Under the pieces are notes generated by a model. That model was not told the DNA's origin. It did not search any database and worked only from the letters and a program-made list of their open reading frames with translations. Shown here piece after piece: positions 9,701 to 32,235 of a stretch of DNA of 47,841 nt. How positions within the stretch are numbered: position 1 is the stretch's first letter; the number at the start of each line of letters is the position of its first letter. A program made the translations under genes and the position numbers. Source of the stretch: Rhodothermus sp. (GTDB lineage: Bacteria > Bacteroidota > Rhodothermia > Rhodothermales > Rhodothermaceae); NCBI GenBank assembly GCA_030950375.1, contig JAUZRN010000046.1, forward strand, positions 1 to 47,841, in the 5' to 3' direction.

Positions 9701-10216
9701 GTGCAACATGCGGGCCAGCAGCGTATCGGGCGTCAGCGTGTCGGCCAGGGACGGATGGGCTTCAAGGAGCTGGAAAAGCAGATAAGCAGCTTCCAGATCA
9801 GACGGATCAAGCTGCAAGGCAGCCTCCAAATGGGCGCGGGCCGTTTCCAGCTGTTCTTCAGCCAGCGCCATTCGTGCCAGCAGCACCTGAATGCGGGCGC
9901 TTTCCGGGGCCAGGCGAGCCGCTTCGTTCAGGTAGCGGCGGGCGGCTTCCAGGTCGTTGCGGCGCAGGGCCAGCAGACCCAGGTTGGCCCAGGCAGCCGG
10001 CTCGCCAGGCGCCAGCTCGGTTACCCGTTCAAGCAGCGTGCGGGCTCCCCGGTCTTCGCCAGCCTGCAGCGCGGCCAGCCCTGTATAGAAGGCAGTGACA
10101 GTCTCCTGATAAGCGTCGGTGCCAGGTGACGGCACCAACGGCGTGCGGCGGCAAGCGGCCGTAATAAGGGTAAGTAGGAATAGGACTACGGGTACGGCAG
10201 GTCGGCCTGATAGCAT
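6797..10216 (-). CDS. Large TPR / FG-GAP (VCBS) / ASPIC-UnbV lipoprotein
   Basis: Lipoprotein of 1139 aa. The ATG at 10216 gives a signal peptide with lipobox ITAAC; an earlier in-frame ATG at 10297 would bury it. Residues about 35-150 are TPR repeats (the A.L.P....AW.NLG pattern). Residues about 345-610 are FG-GAP/VCBS repeats with DFDNDFRMDIA, DFDLEGDLDLLLG, DLDSDGDPDLAML and DLNQDGRLDLVAI, Ca-binding loops of integrin-like blades. Residues about 630-700 are an ASPIC/UnbV domain (NSFGIGG, VHFGLG, IIWPNG). The last 430 or so residues are a family-specific extension rich in Trp and aromatic residues. It belongs to the CRTAC1-like proteins; substrate and role are unknown, with surface binding of protein or carbohydrate likely. 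Confidence 0.75.
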   Translation of the reverse strand: MLSGRPAVPVVLFLLTLITAACRRTPLVPSPGTDAYQETVTAFYTGLAALQAGEDRGARTLLERVTELAPGEPAAWANLGLLALRRNDLEAARRYLNEAARLAPESARIQVLLARMALAEEQLETARAHLEAALQLDPSDLEAAYLLFQLLEAHPSLADTLTPDTLLARMLHRHPDNQALWLERLRRAIIQQDAQTLQETITRLQPLVNTWPEDAQTVWQELLPLTQQPDWAALTTQVRFLRNTLLQHPAFRTDLAALQPPPDVLSPPLFEPLRLTPPRATFALPDTLMTFRTELLVDEAVQAVRVIWKTAEANPSVLLIHARDVQFDDGITLHRPGPLPSFAAPVNTMALLDFDNDFRMDIALLGREGVRLYHQKADGAFTEVPLPMFSVDDFTGLWVADFDLEGDLDLLLGTTSGLFWMRNNGDHTFQLQHAFDIAPHQLTWSDLDSDGDPDLAMLDLNGTLHLWRNERQGLFIPDTTLPPTTSCAITSADLDHNGRLELILWRPNGSLQQLAYHPRTRSWQIFSLPSRTPTLQKPTCRQAHLFTADLDNNGAQDLITTIPTQTWIWLTDAHGHLRPEPLPLTAQTFDAADLNQDGRLDLVAIQPDGIPIRLLNQSDAPYAWTQLHPQAVVVGDQRINSFGIGGVIDIRAGTIYQKQVIQAPVVHFGLGLEERVPLARIIWPNGNVQAEFNLAANQTVQATQRLKGSCPWVFTFNGERMVFVTDFIWGSPLGLRINAQETGDIAQTEDWIKIRGDQLRPRNGVYDVRITAELWETHFFDHVSLLVVDHPENTEIWVDERFAFPPRALRLYTTGPVQPIARAIDHHGRDVTALVQHRDGRYFDSFALGAYQGIAEPHFIELHLGPALPADRPLYLIAYGWLRPTDSSINVAISQGHHPRPRGLRVEVPDSHGSWRVAYPDLGFPAGRLKTIVIDLTDQFPEGGPYRVRLHTNLEIYWDWIGWAEAYPDTLLRTTRLQPEQALLRYRGYSATVQPERSAPEIPIYDTLAATAQRWRDLEGYYTRFGDVRELLARIDDRYVIMNAGDELILHFPALPDPPRGWKRDFVLIGDGWVKDGDYNTTFSRTVRPLPYHGQPSYDTPPGRLWDDPVYRRFPEDWLRFHTRYVAPDRFDQKLALSY

Positions 10217-14811: not shown

Positions 14812-15942
14812 ATGCCGACCATACAATCCAGAAGAGCGGCCTGCTGGCCGGGCGGGCTGGCATTGATACTGCTGCTGGGTAGTTGTGGGTCGGAGACTTC
14901 GTATCGGGTTGCTCAGTTGCTGTTGCATCGCCAGAGCTGGGACTCGCTTCGGATCGAAGTGCAATTTGTGAGGCAGCAGTGGCTGGGAAGCGCCGAGCCA
15001 GTTGTGCCCGATTCGCTGCTGGTGATGCTGCTCAGCGCACGCTACGACACGCTGTACCTGGGTAGCTCACTGCTGGTTTCCATCCCGGATGCTCGACTGG
15101 GCGATCGTGAGCGGTTGTTGCTGGAGGTGTGCGGCTGGTTTGAAACCCGTCTGGTGTGCGATCAGCTTGGTCTGAATGCTTCACCCAAACGCATTGTCGT
15201 TGAACCCGAGGTGATCTATCCTTTTCGCGGCACAACCGCTCGTCTGTACTATCGGCTACATCCCCGGCTGGAGCGTCAGCGCTATGATGGTGCGGGCTGG
15301 GAGCCATTGCCTGTACACCGCTCGGTGCGGGGCTACCTGCTGATGCGCATCGCGGCCGACCCGCAACGTCAGCTCCGGGTGCCCCTCCAAAGCTGGGAAG
15401 GGGTGATCGAGCTGACTGCGCTGCCGGCTTTTTCTGACTTTTGGTATGCGTTGCAGCAGCAATTTCGTACCAGACGTCCAGCTATTGTGACGCTTGAGGT
15501 GTACGGCGGGTTGGAGCTACCTGAATTGCTGGCCACTGTGACGCGGCGACTGCGTCCCAAGACCGAAGCGGAGCGCAAAGCGGAGGTAGCTCATTTTGCG
15601 GGGGAGGCGCTTCGGCAGGTTGTCGAGCATCTCAGTGGCCAGGAGTATCCGATCTGGCTGCGCGTGGAAAGCTGGAGTTTCAATCCGCTGACGTTGCAGT
15701 ATGTGGTAGAAGTGTCGGCTCGTTGGCGGGAAGGCGGCTGGTTTCAGCCGTTCTATGAACTGTTCGGTGTGCTGACGGTAGCCGAAGATGGCACCCAGGC
15801 TGTTTTCCGGTGGGTGTCGGGCAACCAGAGGGCATGGGTGCGCTGGCAGCAACGTGTAGGGCAGGAGCAGGTATTGCCTCTGGTTTCTCTGCCGCCCAGC
15901 GCAAACCCGGCTTCCGACGTAGACTTCCCGCCACTGGGATGA
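14812..15942 (+). CDS. Unknown lipoprotein
   Basis: Protein of 376 aa that I do not recognise. The N-terminus has a basic stretch (residues 6-9), a hydrophobic core (ALILLLG) and a lipobox LLGSC, so it is probably lipid-modified at about Cys25. The mature part is soluble-looking, rich in Arg, Leu and Trp, with no repeats or membrane segments. A region near 155-175 (PVHRSVRGYLLMRIAADPQRQLRVPLQSWEG, in part) and a Trp-rich end (WVRWQQRVGQ) are the only distinctive parts. It follows the Nudix gene closely, and its 3' end faces the chemoreceptor gene. Confidence 0.65.
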   Translation: MPTIQSRRAACWPGGLALILLLGSCGSETSYRVAQLLLHRQSWDSLRIEVQFVRQQWLGSAEPVVPDSLLVMLLSARYDTLYLGSSLLVSIPDARLGDRERLLLEVCGWFETRLVCDQLGLNASPKRIVVEPEVIYPFRGTTARLYYRLHPRLERQRYDGAGWEPLPVHRSVRGYLLMRIAADPQRQLRVPLQSWEGVIELTALPAFSDFWYALQQQFRTRRPAIVTLEVYGGLELPELLATVTRRLRPKTEAERKAEVAHFAGEALRQVVEHLSGQEYPIWLRVESWSFNPLTLQYVVEVSARWREGGWFQPFYELFGVLTVAEDGTQAVFRWVSGNQRAWVRWQQRVGQEQVLPLVSLPPSANPASDVDFPPLG

Positions 15943-15997
15943 TCTGTCCGCTACGCCAGAGAATGCAGGTGCATCCTGCTGAACCTCTAAGAGGGGG

Positions 15998-17818
15998 TTA
16001 AGGGCGTTCCCCATCTTGGGAGAGGATGGCCGTGGACGCATCGGCCTGGGCGGGCGTCGGCTCCGGTCGGGTGGGGCGGGCCATCCCGAGGCGGAACCAG
16101 GCCACTGTGCGGCGGAGGCGGTCCGCCTTCTCCAGGAGGTCGCGGGCCAGGGAGGCGACGGACTCCGCCTGAACGTTCATTTCTTCTGCGGCGCCCCTTA
16201 CCGCTTGGACGGCGGATGCATTGGCCTGGCTGATGTGTGCCAGTTCCTCTACCACCTTGGCGATCTGTCCACTGCTGGTAGCAACCTGCTCGGCAGCTGC
16301 GGTGTTTTCCTGCACTACGGCGGAAATGCTCTCCACGGCGGAGGAAGCTACCTGGCTCAGCTCCGCCATGGTCCGGGAGGCCTGGACGATCGTCTGAACG
16401 CCCTCGTGAACTCGGCGGGAGGTGGTAAGGATGGCCTGGAGGGCCTGACCGGCCTCCTTCGCCATCTGAGCGCCCTGCTGGGTGCAGGCCAGGGCCTCCT
16501 GCATCGCCTGGACGGTGGAGCGGGTCCCCTCCTGCACCTCCTGGATGATACGGGCGATTTCCTTGGTGGCCTGGCCCGACCGCTCCGCCAGTTTCCGTAT
16601 TTCGTCCGCTACCACGGCAAAGCCTCGACCCTGCTCCCCTGCCTGGGCTGCTTCTATAGCCGCGTTGAGGGCCAGCAGGTTCGTTTGCTCGGCGATGTCG
16701 TCAATGGTCTCCACGATAGCTCCGATCTGGCTGGTGTGCTCTTCCAGTCGGTGGATGCGCTGGCTTACTTCTGCCACCATCTTCTGCACCGCCCGCATCA
16801 TCTCCAGGGCCTGCCTCACTGTGTGCGTACCGGCCTCAGCAGTTTCAGCAGCAGACCGGCCTGCGGAGGCGCCCTCTTCTGCGTTCTCAAGGACTGCCTG
16901 TACTGCCTCGTGTAAGCGTCCCACATTGACCGAGATCTCTTCCACTGCCCGTGCTTGCTCCCGCGCTCCTTTGGCAATGCCTTCTATGGCCTGGCTGATC
17001 TGGTCGACCTGAGAGGTCACCTGATCCAAAGCTTCTGTCTGTCGGCTTGTCCTCAAGACCACCTGCTGGATAACCTCAGCGATCTGACTGGTGGCCTGCT
17101 CCGTCTGCTCGGTGGCCGAGCGGAGGTGGGTCCCCGCATCCACCAGGTCCTCCGCCGTCTGCACCGTCTGGGCCAGGGCGTCCCGAACTGCCTGCTTCAG
17201 CACCTCGTACCGGTCCGAAAGGTCTTCCTCGGGCCGGTCCACCTCCACCGCCGAGAGGTCAAACCCCACCGAGTCCAGGTAGTCATAGAAGAACGCATCC
17301 GTGACCGCCTGAATGTCGTAGTTGAACACCGTGAAGATGGCCCGCTCCGCCCGCTCCCGGGCCCAGGGGCGGAATCGGAAGTGGCGCTTCAGGTGCTTGC
17401 GGACCAGGTCCTGGTAGAGGGTGTAACTCCCGATGTACCACTTGAGGGGCAGGTTGATCACATTGTGGACCTTACCGATGTGAAGGCGCTGCTCAAAGTA
17501 GGAGATGCCGAACTCTCCACCCCGTTCCGCCTCCTCAAAGATCTGGCGGAAGTAGTCCGCCTGGGTCTTCTCCAGACGCCGACGGAGGGCGTCCACCGAG
17601 AGGTTGTGACGGCGCGCGAAGGCCTCAAAGAAGGCACGGGTGGGCGGGAAGGAGAACTGCCAGTCGTAGAACTCCCGGGCCAGGGTGTCCGCCACTCGGT
17701 CCGCCCAGCCCCGCAACGCCCGCAGGACCTGGATGTCCTCACGCGTCAGCCGGATGAAGGCCCGTCGGCGCGAAAGGCTGGCCTCCCCGATCCGGTAGGT
17801 GGCTGTGAGGCTCCCCAT
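15998..17818 (-). CDS. Globin-coupled methyl-accepting chemotaxis protein (HemAT-like)
   Basis: Soluble chemoreceptor of 606 aa. Residues about 10-185 form a protoglobin sensor domain: [22 protein letters not shown] places the haem-ligating proximal histidine at His118. It would bind O2, CO or NO. Residues about 215-575 are an MCP signalling domain with long coiled coils; the tip ([20 protein letters not shown], then [19 protein letters not shown]) is the CheA/CheW-binding hairpin. No membrane segment is present. The last 30 residues are Pro/Ala-rich and carry no methyltransferase-tethering pentapeptide. Codon use is strikingly GC-ending, with long CTCC/GAGG-rich runs unlike its neighbours, which suggests acquisition by transfer. 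No chemotaxis partner genes are nearby. The leader is unusual: see the hairpin, direct repeats and small ORF upstream. Confidence 0.9.
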
Positions 17819-17850
17819 GGAGGATTCTTGTTGTTCTGGGATTATCCTCC
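17819..17850 (-). promoter_or_regulatory. Leader hairpin masking a ribosome-binding site
   Basis: Perfect 7-bp inverted repeat in the chemoreceptor leader: on the minus strand GGAGGAT (17850-17844) pairs with ATCCTCC (17825-17819), with an 18-nt loop. The right arm ends immediately before the ATG at 17818. GGAGGA is the only Shine-Dalgarno-like sequence near, and it would be hidden when the hairpin forms. The stop codon of the small upstream ORF lies within the left arm, so ribosomes finishing that ORF could open the hairpin. The role is inferred. Confidence 0.45.
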
Positions 17851-17946
17851 AAGTCCTTCTTTCATAAGCATTTTCTGTGCCAGATTGGTTGGTGAAGCTG
17901 CCAGTGCCATTGTCCTCTGTCCTCCAAGTCCTCCTTCTATGGGCAT
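17842..17946 (-). CDS. Possible 34-residue leader peptide of the chemoreceptor
   Basis: Small ORF just upstream of, and in the same direction as, the globin chemoreceptor. It starts at ATG 17946 after a GGGGAGCAGG stretch and ends with TAA at 17844-17842, 23 nt before the receptor start. The peptide begins [10 protein letters not shown] and ends MKEGLGG, so it carries two copies of an EG(G)LGG motif. These come from an imperfect direct repeat of about 31 bp at 17920-17950 and 17845-17875 that contains AAGGAGGACTTGGAGGA. It may be a regulatory leader, or simply two duplicated translation-initiation regions. No homologue is known to me. Confidence 0.3.
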
Positions 17947-17950
17947 TTTT
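17845..17950 (-). repeat. Imperfect direct repeat (2 x about 31 bp)
   Basis: Units at 17920-17950 and 17845-17875 (75 bp apart) share AAAATGC, then about ten variable bases, then GGACTTGGAGGA on the minus strand. Each unit holds an ATG and a strong ribosome-binding-like GGAGGA. They lie wholly inside the chemoreceptor leader. Confidence 0.6.
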
Positions 17951-18029
17951 TTCCTGCTCCCCGCCTTATGGGCTTTATGACTATCGACCAATAACGAGGT
18001 TGTCGTTTTTAGATGGGGAGTGCCTGGGA

Positions 18030-18743
18030 TTAGCTACTGTTGTCGTTGTTATTGGCCTGAACCGGGCTGGGCAGCAACCGAAAGCGCACAGGCAACTGCA
18101 TCCGGACGCGCACCGGACGTCCATTCTGCTTGCCGGGGATGAAACGCACCCGGCGGAGCGCTGCCACCGCCGCTGAGTCGAGCAACGGATGTAGTGGCTG
18201 AATCACCTGGATGCGTGAAGGACGCCCGTCGGTTTCCACAATAAAGCGCAACACCAGTCGTCCTTCGATACCTGCCCGAATGGCGGCTTCTGGATATTCA
18301 ATATGGATGTAATAGGCACCCAGACCGCCGATGATCTGGGGCGGCTGCTCTGGGTTTTCAAAAATAACCTCACGGGCCTGCAGGCGCGCAGGGGGCTCCA
18401 GGCGCTTACGAAGCTGTAAGGCTTGCAACGTTGAGGTGTCCCGGCTCTCTTTTTTCTGTTCGGGTTCAGGAGGCGCAAAGCGGGTAATAGGCACGCCCGC
18501 ATCCGCTTGTGCGCGGGCCTCAAGCTGTGTGGCCAGCAAGGCCAGTCTGCGATCTTCATCGACCAGCTGCCATCCTACCGGCCGCGGAGCCGGATACCAG
18601 GGCAGGCGGGTAAGCACCAGGAAGAGTGCAAGCGTGCTGGCCAGACAGGCAAGGAGGCGGATTGCATAGGCATGCTTATGCACCTGCAGCCGACGCTGAA
18701 GCCGACCCTGACGTCTCAGCCATTGCGAAGCGCCTCGCGCCAT
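18030..18743 (-). CDS. TonB family energy-transducing protein
   Basis: Inner-membrane-anchored protein of 237 aa that would couple proton-motive force to outer-membrane transporters. The ATG at 18743 is chosen because it leaves a basic N-terminus followed by one membrane segment (about 28-47, LLACLASTLALFLVL). An extended periplasmic linker rich in Arg, Glu and Pro follows (about 50-130). The C-terminal 95 residues form a TonB domain: YPEAAIRAGIEGRLVLRFIV, then LLDSAAVAALRRVRFIPGKQNGRPV. The usual Pro-Lys/Pro-Glu repeat is short. No ExbB/ExbD or receptor gene is in the window. It is divergent from the amidohydrolase pair. Confidence 0.88.
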   Translation of the reverse strand: MARGASQWLRRQGRLQRRLQVHKHAYAIRLLACLASTLALFLVLTRLPWYPAPRPVGWQLVDEDRRLALLATQLEARAQADAGVPITRFAPPEPEQKKESRDTSTLQALQLRKRLEPPARLQAREVIFENPEQPPQIIGGLGAYYIHIEYPEAAIRAGIEGRLVLRFIVETDGRPSRIQVIQPLHPLLDSAAVAALRRVRFIPGKQNGRPVRVRMQLPVRFRLLPSPVQANNNDNSS

Positions 18744-18889
18744 GACTGCTTTCTCTTTCGAGAAGTTTCTGTAAAAAACGGTAGATCGTCGAAAAAGTTG
18801 CCCGTGTGCCCAGACACTCGCATTTTGAGGGTGCTTTTGCCTAACTTTAGCGCTGCATGTAAGAACGTTCAACCTGACAGGTATCGGCG

Positions 18890-20176
18890 ATGCGCGTGTT
18901 CTGGTGGCTACTGTTGTTGATGCCCGGCCTGCTGTATGGTCAGGAGCAACCGCTTGTTTTTCGAGGTGCTCGTCTTTATCCGATCAGTCAGCCGCCCATT
19001 GAGCGTGGAGTGCTGGTCGTGCAGCACGGTAAGATTGTGGCCGTGGGGCAGGAGGGCGAGGTGGCCATTCCTGAGGCGGCTACGGTCTATGACGTGGAGG
19101 GAAAAGTGATCATGCCCGGGTTGGTGGATACGCACTCACATATCGGACGGGTTGAAGGCGGCGACCGTTCGGCGCCCATGCATCCGGCCGTGCGCACGCT
19201 GGATGCTATTGACGTACGTCACAGCTCCGTGCAGCGGGCACGTGCCGGAGGCATTACGACCGTGAACGTGATGTCTGGCTCCGGTCACCTGCTCAGTGGC
19301 CAGACGGTCTACCTGAAGCTTCGCAAAGGCAATACCATTGAGGATCTGCTCTACTGCAAGGATCCGCTCAAAGAGATCTGTGGTGGGTTGAAGATGGCCA
19401 ATGGCACCAATCCCCAGGGGGACCCACCTTTTCCCGGTACGCGGGCCCGGGCAGCGGCGCTGGTGCGTCAGCAGTTTCTGAAAGCTCTGGCCTACCGGCG
19501 TAAGCTTGAGCAGGCCAAAGGAGATCCCGAAAAGATGCCAGCGCGTGATTTGGACATGGAAGCCCTGCTGGAGGTGCTGGACGGCCGTCGGGTCGTGCAC
19601 TTCCACACGCACCGCCACGATGATATTCTGACCGTATTGCGACTAAAGCGGGAGTTTGGTTTCCGGGTCGTGCTGCATCACGTCAGCGAGGCCTGGAAGG
19701 TGGCCGATGAGATTGCGGCTGCGGGCGTGCCCTGTTCCATTATTATCCTGGATGCGCCGGGCGGGAAGCTGGAAGCCGTTGATCTGCGCATGGAAAACGG
19801 GGCCGCGCTGGAAAAGGCTGGAGTCGATGTGGCCATTCACACGGACGATCTGATCACAGACTCCCGCTGGTTTCTGCGAGCGGCTGCATTGGCCGTTCGG
19901 GCCGGCATGTCGCCCGCAAAGGCGCTTGAAGCACTCACGCTGGCCGGCGCTCGCATGCTGGATCTTGCCGACCGGATCGGTTCGCTGGAGCCCGGTAAAG
20001 ATGCGGATTTCATCATACTCTCAGGAGATCCACTCAGCGTCTACACACACGTAGAACAGACGTGGGTGGAAGGGCAGAAGGTGTTTGATCGAGCCGATCC
20101 AGAAGATCGGAAGTATGCCGTTGGCAGCATCGGTGTGTTTGACGATGGTGATGTGTTTGTCCATGAGGGCCATTGA
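18890..20176 (+). CDS. Secreted amidohydrolase (imidazolonepropionase-like)
   Basis: Exported metal-dependent hydrolase of 428 aa with a clear signal peptide (MRVFWWLLLLMPGLLYGQ). The TIM-barrel ligands are present: HSH in VDTHSHIG (about residues 82-84), His in VVHFHTHRHDD, His-His in VLHHVSEA, and the catalytic Asp in AIHTDDL. The C-terminal LADRIGSLEPGKDADFIIL closes the composite beta domain. The true substrate is unknown; the family covers imidazolonepropionase, prolidase-like and other cyclic amide hydrolases, and export argues against a histidine-breakdown role. A TAACTTTA box lies about 45 bp upstream of the ATG. A paralogue follows 16 nt downstream. Confidence 0.85.
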   Translation: MRVFWWLLLLMPGLLYGQEQPLVFRGARLYPISQPPIERGVLVVQHGKIVAVGQEGEVAIPEAATVYDVEGKVIMPGLVDTHSHIGRVEGGDRSAPMHPAVRTLDAIDVRHSSVQRARAGGITTVNVMSGSGHLLSGQTVYLKLRKGNTIEDLLYCKDPLKEICGGLKMANGTNPQGDPPFPGTRARAAALVRQQFLKALAYRRKLEQAKGDPEKMPARDLDMEALLEVLDGRRVVHFHTHRHDDILTVLRLKREFGFRVVLHHVSEAWKVADEIAAAGVPCSIIILDAPGGKLEAVDLRMENGAALEKAGVDVAIHTDDLITDSRWFLRAAALAVRAGMSPAKALEALTLAGARMLDLADRIGSLEPGKDADFIILSGDPLSVYTHVEQTWVEGQKVFDRADPEDRKYAVGSIGVFDDGDVFVHEGH

Positions 20177-29084: not shown

Positions 29085-31442
29085 TCAAAATGGCGTAGAT
29101 ATACGTACGTCCTCAGGGGTGCGGATTTTCCGGATGGGCCGAATACCCGCTGACGAAAAGCCAAATAGATCATCAGGCGAGAAGATACGTCGAAAATCGG
29201 CCGGGGTAAAGAAGGGCTCAAATTTGCGAGCAAATTCGTCCAGACGGCGCAGGTAGTAGGCTACGTTTTCATCCGGATGGGCTGGATCCCATTCTTCGGC
29301 CAGGCGGCAGTGTTCATAGGCGGCCACGTTGGGATGTGTTCCTGTAAGGTAGTAGCTGATCCGATCGCCCTTGCGCACAGGACGTCCGGCCTCGCGCAGA
29401 CGGCAGGCCAGTTCGTAGGCAGCGGCGCGGGGGCGACGGCCAGCGGCTACGTCCGCCAGGTAATTTTCAAGCGAATCTTTCAACGTTTCCGTACGGGCAA
29501 AGTCGTATACACTCTCCCAGGCATGTTGCAGAATACGCAGGCGATAGCGCAGGTAGAGCTCATGTAGGCCCTGAATATCTTCTTCCAGCAATCGTGCAAT
29601 GGCTTCTCGGACAAACTGGCGACCAAAGCGCTCCACGGAGCGAGAAATTAGCGAGGACCCTTTGAACCGCAGGCTCCCGTCGTATCCCAGCAGCGCATAG
29701 TTTTTCTTCTTATAGGAAAGCATTTTCTTAAAGCGTCCCTCGAAGCTTACGCGGATACCGGCGGGCAGGGCTGTGTTGAGTTGATCGACGAAAGCGCGTT
29801 CGGCAGCTTCTCCCTGGATGCTGGCTGGTGGTACAAAGAGGACTCCATCAGTATCTACCTCGACGACCTGGCCGCCTGCCTGTTGAATGGTATGGATGAG
29901 CCGACGCAGTACTTCCTGTCCGGAGGCCGCTACGCGATCGGCTGCCTCAAAATCGTTGAACGTGGCCCGTGAGAAGCCCAGCATGCCATAGAAAGAGTTG
30001 ATCAGGATCTTGTAAGAGCTCTGCCGGGCGTCAAGCTCACGACGCAGCGCTTCCGAGGAGGCTTCACGCATCTGTCGCTTGGTCTCCAGGCGCAGTTCGG
30101 TCAGTCGACGCAGCAACTGTTGGAACAGGCCCAGCCGATCGGTGCGCGGTTGAATGCCATAGGTGAGCATGATGGAGGGATAGAGGCTTTCAACATCGGC
30201 ATAAACGACAGGGCCAACTACACCGGTTACGAAGACGTCTGTGTAGCCGCCCAGCGCCTGGCTGCCCCACTGCGGGCACGGAATGCTGTGGCGCCGCCGC
30301 AAGTATTCGCGCACCATGAGTGCTTCAATTTTGGCCGCTGGTCCGGTGCGAGCCACCTGGCCATAAGGCATAGGCACCATCTGGGTCAGATAGAAGGCCG
30401 AGCCCGAGAGCATCCGGGCCAGGCGTTCTGTTTCGATTGCATCATCGCGTACGTAGGCGCGCACGCGATCCGGATCTTCGATCCAGCTGCGGGACAGCTC
30501 GGAGCCCGTAATGTAAGTGCGGTTGTGGACCGAAAGGCCAAAGTAACGGGCAACCGTCTTCAGCGTATAGTCAGGCAGATCCCGTTTGAATACATCGAAA
30601 GCCAGCACCTGAAAGTACACATCAATTACATGCCGACCCGCAATCTCAAAAGCTGTGTAATCCACTGTGCGCTCCGCGAAGCGGATGCTTGCTGGAAACG
30701 TGCGCGGCTCGCTGCCATCACGGCCCAGTTGCAGCGGAATGCCATAGCGCTGGCAACGTCGCTGCAGGTAGGGCAGATCGAAAGCAAGCAGATTGTAGCC
30801 TTCCAGTACGTCGGGGTCTCGCGTGCGCAGAATGTCCAGAAACTGGCGTAGCAGGGCTGCCTCGGAGCCGGCCTCACGTACGTCCAGCACGCGATGCCAG
30901 CCGCGATTATCGTGCAGAGCAATGAGTACGATCTGGTCCTCGGGGCGATCGGCGTTGGGAAAGCCTGCCGTGGTATAGACCTCAATGTCAAGCTGCAGGC
31001 GGTGGAGCTCATCGAGCGTCATGCCCTTGAAGCAGGTGCGACCGGACTGCATCAGATACTGCTGCGCCGGTGCATTGATCAGATAAAGGGGCGAAGGTTC
31101 GAGGCCGGATGCTGCTTGCTCGATGTGTCGAATGGCAGCCCGATAGGCCATCCAGCTTTCAAAGACAACGAGATAGCGAAAGTGTTCGTGGCCCTGTAGT
31201 GGCTGAAAGCGAAAGCGCTGGCGTGGATAGCCGGCCAGCAGCCGAATATCGGAAAGCAGGAAGAACGGATAGAACGGTTGTTCTTCAATGCGCAGCGAGC
31301 CGTCTTCGTTGCGCCAGTACAGGCGCACACGTGCAGGTGTGTCGACGTCACCGTCCAGCAGCGGTTGCACATCCAGTAACCGTGGAGCCGGATCGCGTCC
31401 GAACAGGGCAACATCTTCGTAGGGGAGGGTGGCCTCTGTCAT
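29085..31442 (-). CDS. polB: Family B DNA polymerase (Pol II type)
   Basis: DNA polymerase of 785 aa with both activities intact. 3'-5' exonuclease motifs: Asp152-x-Glu154 (Exo I), GYNLLAFD with Asp222 (Exo II), and Y330-x3-D334 (Exo III). Polymerase motifs: DVESLYPS from Asp416 (A), KILINSFYG from Lys478 (B) and DTDG at 530-533 (C). The ATG at 31442 is used because it has a CGGAGAAC ribosome site; the frame stays open a further 97 codons upstream with non-protein-like sequence. Role: translesion or repair synthesis, as for bacterial Pol II. No intein is present. It is followed immediately by speA. Confidence 0.93.
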   Translation of the reverse strand: MTEATLPYEDVALFGRDPAPRLLDVQPLLDGDVDTPARVRLYWRNEDGSLRIEEQPFYPFFLLSDIRLLAGYPRQRFRFQPLQGHEHFRYLVVFESWMAYRAAIRHIEQAASGLEPSPLYLINAPAQQYLMQSGRTCFKGMTLDELHRLQLDIEVYTTAGFPNADRPEDQIVLIALHDNRGWHRVLDVREAGSEAALLRQFLDILRTRDPDVLEGYNLLAFDLPYLQRRCQRYGIPLQLGRDGSEPRTFPASIRFAERTVDYTAFEIAGRHVIDVYFQVLAFDVFKRDLPDYTLKTVARYFGLSVHNRTYITGSELSRSWIEDPDRVRAYVRDDAIETERLARMLSGSAFYLTQMVPMPYGQVARTGPAAKIEALMVREYLRRRHSIPCPQWGSQALGGYTDVFVTGVVGPVVYADVESLYPSIMLTYGIQPRTDRLGLFQQLLRRLTELRLETKRQMREASSEALRRELDARQSSYKILINSFYGMLGFSRATFNDFEAADRVAASGQEVLRRLIHTIQQAGGQVVEVDTDGVLFVPPASIQGEAAERAFVDQLNTALPAGIRVSFEGRFKKMLSYKKKNYALLGYDGSLRFKGSSLISRSVERFGRQFVREAIARLLEEDIQGLHELYLRYRLRILQHAWESVYDFARTETLKDSLENYLADVAAGRRPRAAAYELACRLREAGRPVRKGDRISYYLTGTHPNVAAYEHCRLAEEWDPAHPDENVAYYLRRLDEFARKFEPFFTPADFRRIFSPDDLFGFSSAGIRPIRKIRTPEDVRISTPF

Positions 31443-31608
31443 GTTCTCCGGGTATTTGCTGACGGATCGACGCCCATCAGGTCCGGGGGCTGCCTGTACC
31501 CGGCGCGTAGCGGCCGCTATCCCGTCTTCTTGTAAAACTTGAACAAAAGGATATACCGCACGGATCAGGAGGCGGTTCTGGCCTGCAGGGATGCGTATCT
31601 TAAAAAGT

Positions 31609-32235
31609 ATGAATCGTCTTGAAGTCGTAGCGCTCAGTAAACGTTTCGGGTTCCGCCGACTGTTCGAGGGGCTTTCGTTTACGATTACGGCCGGACAGAC
31701 ACTGGCCGTAACGGGCCCGAACGGCGCCGGCAAGTCGACGCTGCTTCGGATACTGGCAGGCGTGCTGCGTCCGACAACGGGTGAGATTCGGTTGCAGGTT
31801 GATGGCCGCTGGATTGAGGCGGCCGATCGCCCGTTTCATGTGGGGCTGGCGGCTCCTTACCTGCAGCTCTACGAGGGGTTTACGGCACGTGAAAATCTGG
31901 CTTTTCTGGCCCGTGCACGTGGATTGGCGGATGGTGCTCGACGAGTAGCGTACTGGTTGGAGCGGATCGGGCTGCAGGCGTTTGCCGATGAGCCCGTGGC
32001 CATTTTTTCGTCCGGGATGCGTCAGCGACTTCGACTGGCTGCTGCCCTGCTGGCTGATCCGCCACTCTGGTTGCTGGACGAACCGCGTTCGAATCTGGAC
32101 GAGGCTGGCCGTCGCCTGGTTGAAGCGTTACTTGAAGAGGCCCGAGAAGAAGGCCGACTGGTTGTCGTAGCCACTAACGATGCCGACGAAGCAGCCGCTT
32201 GTATGCAGCAGGTAGATCTGCGGGCGTTTCGTTGA
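31609..32235 (+). CDS. ABC transporter ATP-binding protein (CcmA-like)
   Basis: Cytoplasmic ATPase of 208 aa. Walker A GPNGAGKST at 36-44, signature FSSGMRQR and Walker B LWLLDEP are all present. The length, the N-terminus (LEVVALSKRFGFRRLFEGLSF) and the RSNLD after Walker B resemble CcmA, the ATPase of the cytochrome c haem exporter, but generic efflux ATPases are similar. No membrane partner is adjacent; the genes either side run the other way, so it would have to work with a permease encoded elsewhere. An alternative ATG at 31591 would add six residues. Its end lies 3 nt from the comF stop. Confidence 0.75.
   Translation: MNRLEVVALSKRFGFRRLFEGLSFTITAGQTLAVTGPNGAGKSTLLRILAGVLRPTTGEIRLQVDGRWIEAADRPFHVGLAAPYLQLYEGFTARENLAFLARARGLADGARRVAYWLERIGLQAFADEPVAIFSSGMRQRLRLAAALLADPPLWLLDEPRSNLDEAGRRLVEALLEEAREEGRLVVVATNDADEAAACMQQVDLRAFR

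Follow-up and report, generated by a model that had tools for sequence, protein, structure and literature searches.

What does the short leader in front of a globin-coupled chemoreceptor gene do in Rhodothermus, and does a small ORF within it take part in the control of an oxygen sensor? The window analysed here, a stretch of 47,841 nt of Rhodothermus sp. DNA, carries this gene downstream of a tonB-like gene, and the leader occupies the interval between the two. The original prediction described a hairpin, direct repeats and a 34-codon ORF in this interval, and proposed that the hairpin conceals the ribosome site until translation of the ORF opens it. The three elements are present as described, all on the minus strand and upstream of the chemoreceptor gene (Table 1), where the order from 5' to 3' is the end of tonB, the leader, and then ...GGACTTGGAGGATAATCCCAGAACAACAAGAATCCTCCATGGGG... 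The functions assigned to them fared less well.

The chemoreceptor gene and its distribution in Rhodothermus

The gene product resembles HemAT-type globin-coupled chemoreceptors in that a Protoglobin domain is followed by an MCP signalling domain, and no unusual protein feature that would set it apart was found here. Among the seven Rhodothermus species compared, an orthologue with its leader occurs in this genome and in one congener (G006) only. In the other congeners, among them G005, a convergent gene of unknown family comes immediately after tonB, and homology with the window stops at about 17994 and restarts at about 15904. These two breaks indicate that leader and chemoreceptor gene form one segment that is present or absent as a whole, and that was either gained by the two species or lost in the others. 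The best matches outside the genus in a GTDB scan come from Anaerolineae and from another Chloroflexota bacterium, with 47-48% identity, so that horizontal gain is possible. A search for further orthologues that could show covariation, made in 60 relatives, in 245 genomes from the class and 394 from the phylum, and in the GTDB contig set, recovered the leader from the one congener only; upstream of distant homologues in Chloroflexota, Anaerolineae and other members of the order it is unrecognisable.

An Rfam search of positions 15900-19000 gave no riboswitch or other RNA family, the only two matches being at chance level and elsewhere, and no terminator was found on this strand between tonB and the chemoreceptor gene. 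Elsewhere in the window, at 29085-31733, this bacterial genome encodes a family B DNA polymerase (PF00136, PF03104).

Table 1. Features of the chemoreceptor locus, in window coordinates.
Feature	Position	Strand	Remarks
Globin-coupled chemoreceptor gene, 606 aa	15998..17818	-	Protoglobin PF11563, E 1.5e-26; MCP signalling domain PF00015, E 2.2e-44
tonB-like gene	18030-18872		Upstream neighbour; the leader sits between it and the chemoreceptor gene
Leader plus chemoreceptor segment	15905..17993	-	Within the genus, in this genome and G006 only
Direct repeat, copy 1	17920..17949	-	Eroded in G006 by a 7-nt deletion
34-codon ORF, probably not a gene	17842..17946	-	In G006 neither start, frame nor stop is kept
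Candidate sigma-54 promoter TGGCACAGAAAATGCT	17867..17882	-	-24 GG, -12 GC, correct 10-nt spacing; identical in G006
Direct repeat, copy 2	17845..17874	-	Shares bases with the 5' arm and, on its -12 side, with the promoter
Predicted transcription start (G)	17856	-	12 nt after the -12 C (17868); inferred from the numbering in PMC3538637
Hairpin 5' arm TGGAGGAT	17844..17851	-	Identical in G006
Hairpin loop, 18 nt	17826..17843	-	5/18 substitutions against G006, equal length
Hairpin 3' arm ATCCTCCA	17818..17825	-	Last base is the A of the chemoreceptor ATG; identical in G006

The hairpin and the start codon

The arms TGGAGGAT and ATCCTCCA pair perfectly over 8 bp around an 18-nt loop, and the final pair includes the A of the start codon, an ATG that is kept in G006. 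A perfect stem between GGAGGAT and ATCCTCC directly before the ATG thus exists as originally described, but it does not hold the only Shine-Dalgarno-like sequence, since further GGAGG copies lie upstream. A gap of 25 nt separates the GGAGGAT of the stem from the ATG, too great a distance for it to act as the Shine-Dalgarno sequence of this start; a usable site sequestered 5-10 nt before the start was not found in the leader. Nor does the genome appear to depend on such sites. A set of 114 genes with ATG starts was drawn from the window and from nine stretches sampled in this genome; GGAGG is present at -18..-4 in 3 of them, compared with 2 of 114 in each of two control stretches, and weaker motifs (GGAG, AAGG) show no more than a mild enrichment. 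The genome makes hardly any use of Shine-Dalgarno sites, which fits the pattern of the Bacteroidia, where they are poorly used and where low structure around the start is one known determinant of initiation (PMC9976891). Rhodothermus was not mentioned in the literature searched on this subject. In view of the distance and of the rarity of GGAGG before genes, the claim that the stem hides a ribosome site is not upheld.

What the stem would cover is the start-codon region itself: it pairs the seven bases directly before the AUG and its A, and is predicted to occlude this region and not a ribosome site of the usual kind. With a stable stem predicted over the initiation region, the leader resembles known start-codon-sequestering hairpins, from which it differs in having no used Shine-Dalgarno site. 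In the folding model the hairpin has an energy of -10.4 kcal/mol (-12.8 in G006) at 37 C, and one of -4.5 kcal/mol (-4.9 in G006) at 65 C. Rhodothermus grows near 65 C, and at this temperature the predicted probability that the 3' arm is unpaired is 0.12; at 65-70 C the arm is still mostly paired in the model.

How far the hairpin departs from chance depends on the comparison that is made. When the 176-nt leader was dinucleotide-shuffled 1000 times, 26 of the shuffles (2.6%) contained a perfect 8-bp inverted repeat whose loop was 20 nt or shorter. In the region -60..+12, 3 of the 114 sampled genes carry an 8-bp inverted repeat (0.8 expected), and in 2 of them, the chemoreceptor gene included, it ends near the ATG (0.2 expected); these genome statistics draw on the window and on about 177 kb of sequence sampled from the genome. 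Folding of the whole leader is not unusual relative to shuffles (z = +1.4), and a search for the same hairpin upstream of other genes in the genus gave no more hits than chance. A folding of the leader made on the plus strand was discarded as the wrong strand. Between the two species, changes number 0/16 in the stem, 5/18 in the loop, 20/132 in the leader before the stem and 31/213 in the first 213 nt of the gene. Stem and loop differ in conservation (Fisher p 0.046), whereas the difference between the stem and the whole leader is not significant (p 0.13); the comparison rests on two sequences, and no compensatory change was seen in the stem. The conservation of the stem is suggestive at this level. 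A start-proximal hairpin, kept in a congener and predicted to stay mostly folded at growth temperature, is what survives of the original proposal.

The small ORF and a candidate sigma-54 promoter

The 34-codon ORF was said to end with its stop inside the stem, which is correct for the T of its TAA only, the other two bases lying outside. In G006 the ATG has become ATA, a 7-nt deletion falls in the first repeat and the TAA reads TAC, so that of the elements looked for in homologous loci the stem is identical in the one congener and the ORF is not kept. In the codons that are shared with G006 (...LGG), differences at positions 1 and 2 exceed those at position 3, and substitution without a third-position bias is not the behaviour of a conserved peptide. 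The ORF is probably a chance frame across promoter DNA. The direct repeat is imperfect, with 30-nt copies that are 83% identical and 75 nt apart; GGACTTGGAGGA, this repeat taken as a regulator site, was not retained as a candidate, given the erosion of one copy in the congener. Both species have a shorter frame that begins ATGCTTATG and runs across the 5' arm. It has 9 codons here, where it stops with a TAA at the 5' arm, and 18 codons in the congener. In G006 this 18-codon frame (L033 1648-1704) crosses the hairpin and its TGA overlaps the chemoreceptor ATG (ATGA).

Within the ORF lies the sole promoter candidate that was found, a sequence of the sigma-54 type. Promoters dependent on sigma-54 (RpoN) follow the consensus TGGCACG-N4-TTGCW, with a G at -24 and a C at -12 (PMC3538637). 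The sequence TGGCACAGAAAATGCT matches TGGCAC-N5-TTGC at 9 of 10 positions, where 0.005 such matches are expected in the leader. It has in common with known -24/-12 promoters the TGGCAC, the invariant GG and GC, the 10-nt spacing and a W after the GC, and it differs in having A for the first T of TTGC and A, not G, after TGGCAC. With a hand-written scoring matrix, and for a motif noticed by eye before testing, the site reaches 15.6 bits. None of the 353,730 positions sampled from the genome scores as high, and a score as good came up in 1 of 3000 leader shuffles; a single other position of the window exceeds it (16.2 at 9717), inside a coding region. The longest run of the leader that is unchanged between the two species, 28 nt (AACCAATCTGGCACAGAAAATGCTTATG), contains TGGCAC-N5-ATGCT. 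The genus carries the machinery needed to read such a site, with rpoN (PF04552) in 7/7 congeners and about six sigma-54 activator domains (PF00158) per genome, at E < 1e-60. Doublets, spacing and context, the presence of rpoN together with AAA+ activators, and retention before the same gene in the only congener that has it all agree with membership in the sigma-54 class. A scan for sigma-70 promoters found none. Genome-wide, TGGCAC-N5-WTGCW shows no enrichment relative to its reversed control, and no sigma-54 sites were found before the other chemoreceptor genes examined.

For a sigma-54 promoter, an activator-binding site would be expected 80-150 nt upstream of the start. A perfect dyad, AGCCT-ATA-AGGCT, was seen in G006 (L033 1553-1565) and, in imperfect form, at 17974-17962 (minus strand) of the window, in both cases by eye only; it stands just downstream of the segment junction and about 110 nt before the predicted start, a position where an activator site could lie. 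A strong sigma-54-like site, TGGCACAAAGATTGCA, was also observed at another locus of the genus (L134, G001:C2:284964), 103 nt before a 471-aa ORF that resembles a polysaccharide chain-length determinant, a hint that such genes may belong to the RpoN set of the genus.

A reading of the leader and its alternatives

The reading that we favour, and to which we give an even chance, is that a sigma-54 promoter and a short structured leader precede the chemoreceptor gene, that the hairpin lowers basal translation, and that the 34-codon ORF is there by chance. The leader would then be a promoter region followed by a short 5' UTR. RNA polymerase with sigma-54 would bind TGGCAC-N5-ATGC at 17882-17867, an enhancer-binding protein would activate it, and transcription would start near 17856, five bases before the stem. 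The mRNA would begin with GGACU and continue at once into UGGAGGAU-N18-AUCCUCCA, whose last pair takes in the start-codon A, and would thus carry a 5'-terminal hairpin that runs into the AUG; the RNA of G006 is predicted to begin GAACU-UGGAGGAU... Since a ribosome must melt the stem to start, the hairpin most likely lowers basal translation, and from its place at the 5' end it may shield the mRNA as well. The stem, 5 nt from the predicted 5' end, is comparable to stabilising 5'-terminal hairpins such as that of ompA mRNA, but unlike these it runs into the start codon and should also hinder initiation. Promoter activity, start site and hairpin effect are here predictions from sequence.

Three alternatives have to be weighed against this. 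The coupling originally proposed would need a transcript from farther upstream, by read-through from tonB or from an unseen promoter, that carries the small ORF, so that its translation opens the hairpin and the chemoreceptor is made. The overlap of stem and ORF stop in the window, the lack of a detected terminator after tonB on the minus strand and the presence in both species of some frame beginning ATGCTTATG across the 5' arm are in its favour, and an ORF that overlaps the stem in this species is what leader-ORF coupling has in general. Coupling leaders differ from this one, however, in that the ORF here is not conserved and probably not transcribed: its start, frame and stop are lost in G006, its shared codons lack a third-position bias, and the sigma-54 site lies inside it. 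Because the predicted start at 17856 is 90 nt downstream of the start codon of the ORF, that start codon would be off the transcript, and the ATGCTTATG frame, with which a weaker version of the coupling idea survives, also begins upstream of the predicted start. The evidence gives no support to coupling through the 34-codon ORF, and we consider this explanation very improbable.

The other two alternatives concern the hairpin alone. The inverted repeat TGGAGGAT-N18-ATCCTCCA might instead serve as a DNA operator in the initially transcribed region, bound by a dimeric repressor, with RNA pairing incidental; the arms and their 18-nt spacing are the same in G006 and the loop is not, as one would expect of DNA half-sites no less than of an RNA stem. 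However, the pattern GGAGG-N8-32-CCTCCATG before start codons stands at chance level, with 5 matches in the genome and 5 for the reversed pattern, and no regulator gene adjoins the inverted repeat among the neighbours scanned, so that an operator seems unlikely. Alternatively, the hairpin may be functionless, a chance 8-bp inverted repeat that is kept since the two species are close. The frequency of such repeats in shuffled leaders, the non-significant conservation of the stem over the leader background and the ordinary folding of the whole leader all agree with this, while the exact placement on the start codon and the identity of the arms next to a diverged loop speak against it; we regard it as a minority possibility that deserves to be taken seriously.

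Returning to the sigma-54 promoter and structured leader, a more elaborate form of this reading can be put forward as a speculation of low probability: in a lineage that makes little use of Shine-Dalgarno sites, the oxygen chemoreceptor could be doubly gated. An activator would control its transcription, and a 5'-terminal stem that closes exactly on the start codon, and that might respond to temperature in this thermophile, would control its translation. A working hairpin would mean that a start codon is gated with no Shine-Dalgarno site involved, and an oxygen chemoreceptor of Rhodothermus would come under sigma-54 control. In view of one relative and a promoter scan, a leader that looks like a coupling device is more likely promoter DNA followed by a very short structured leader.
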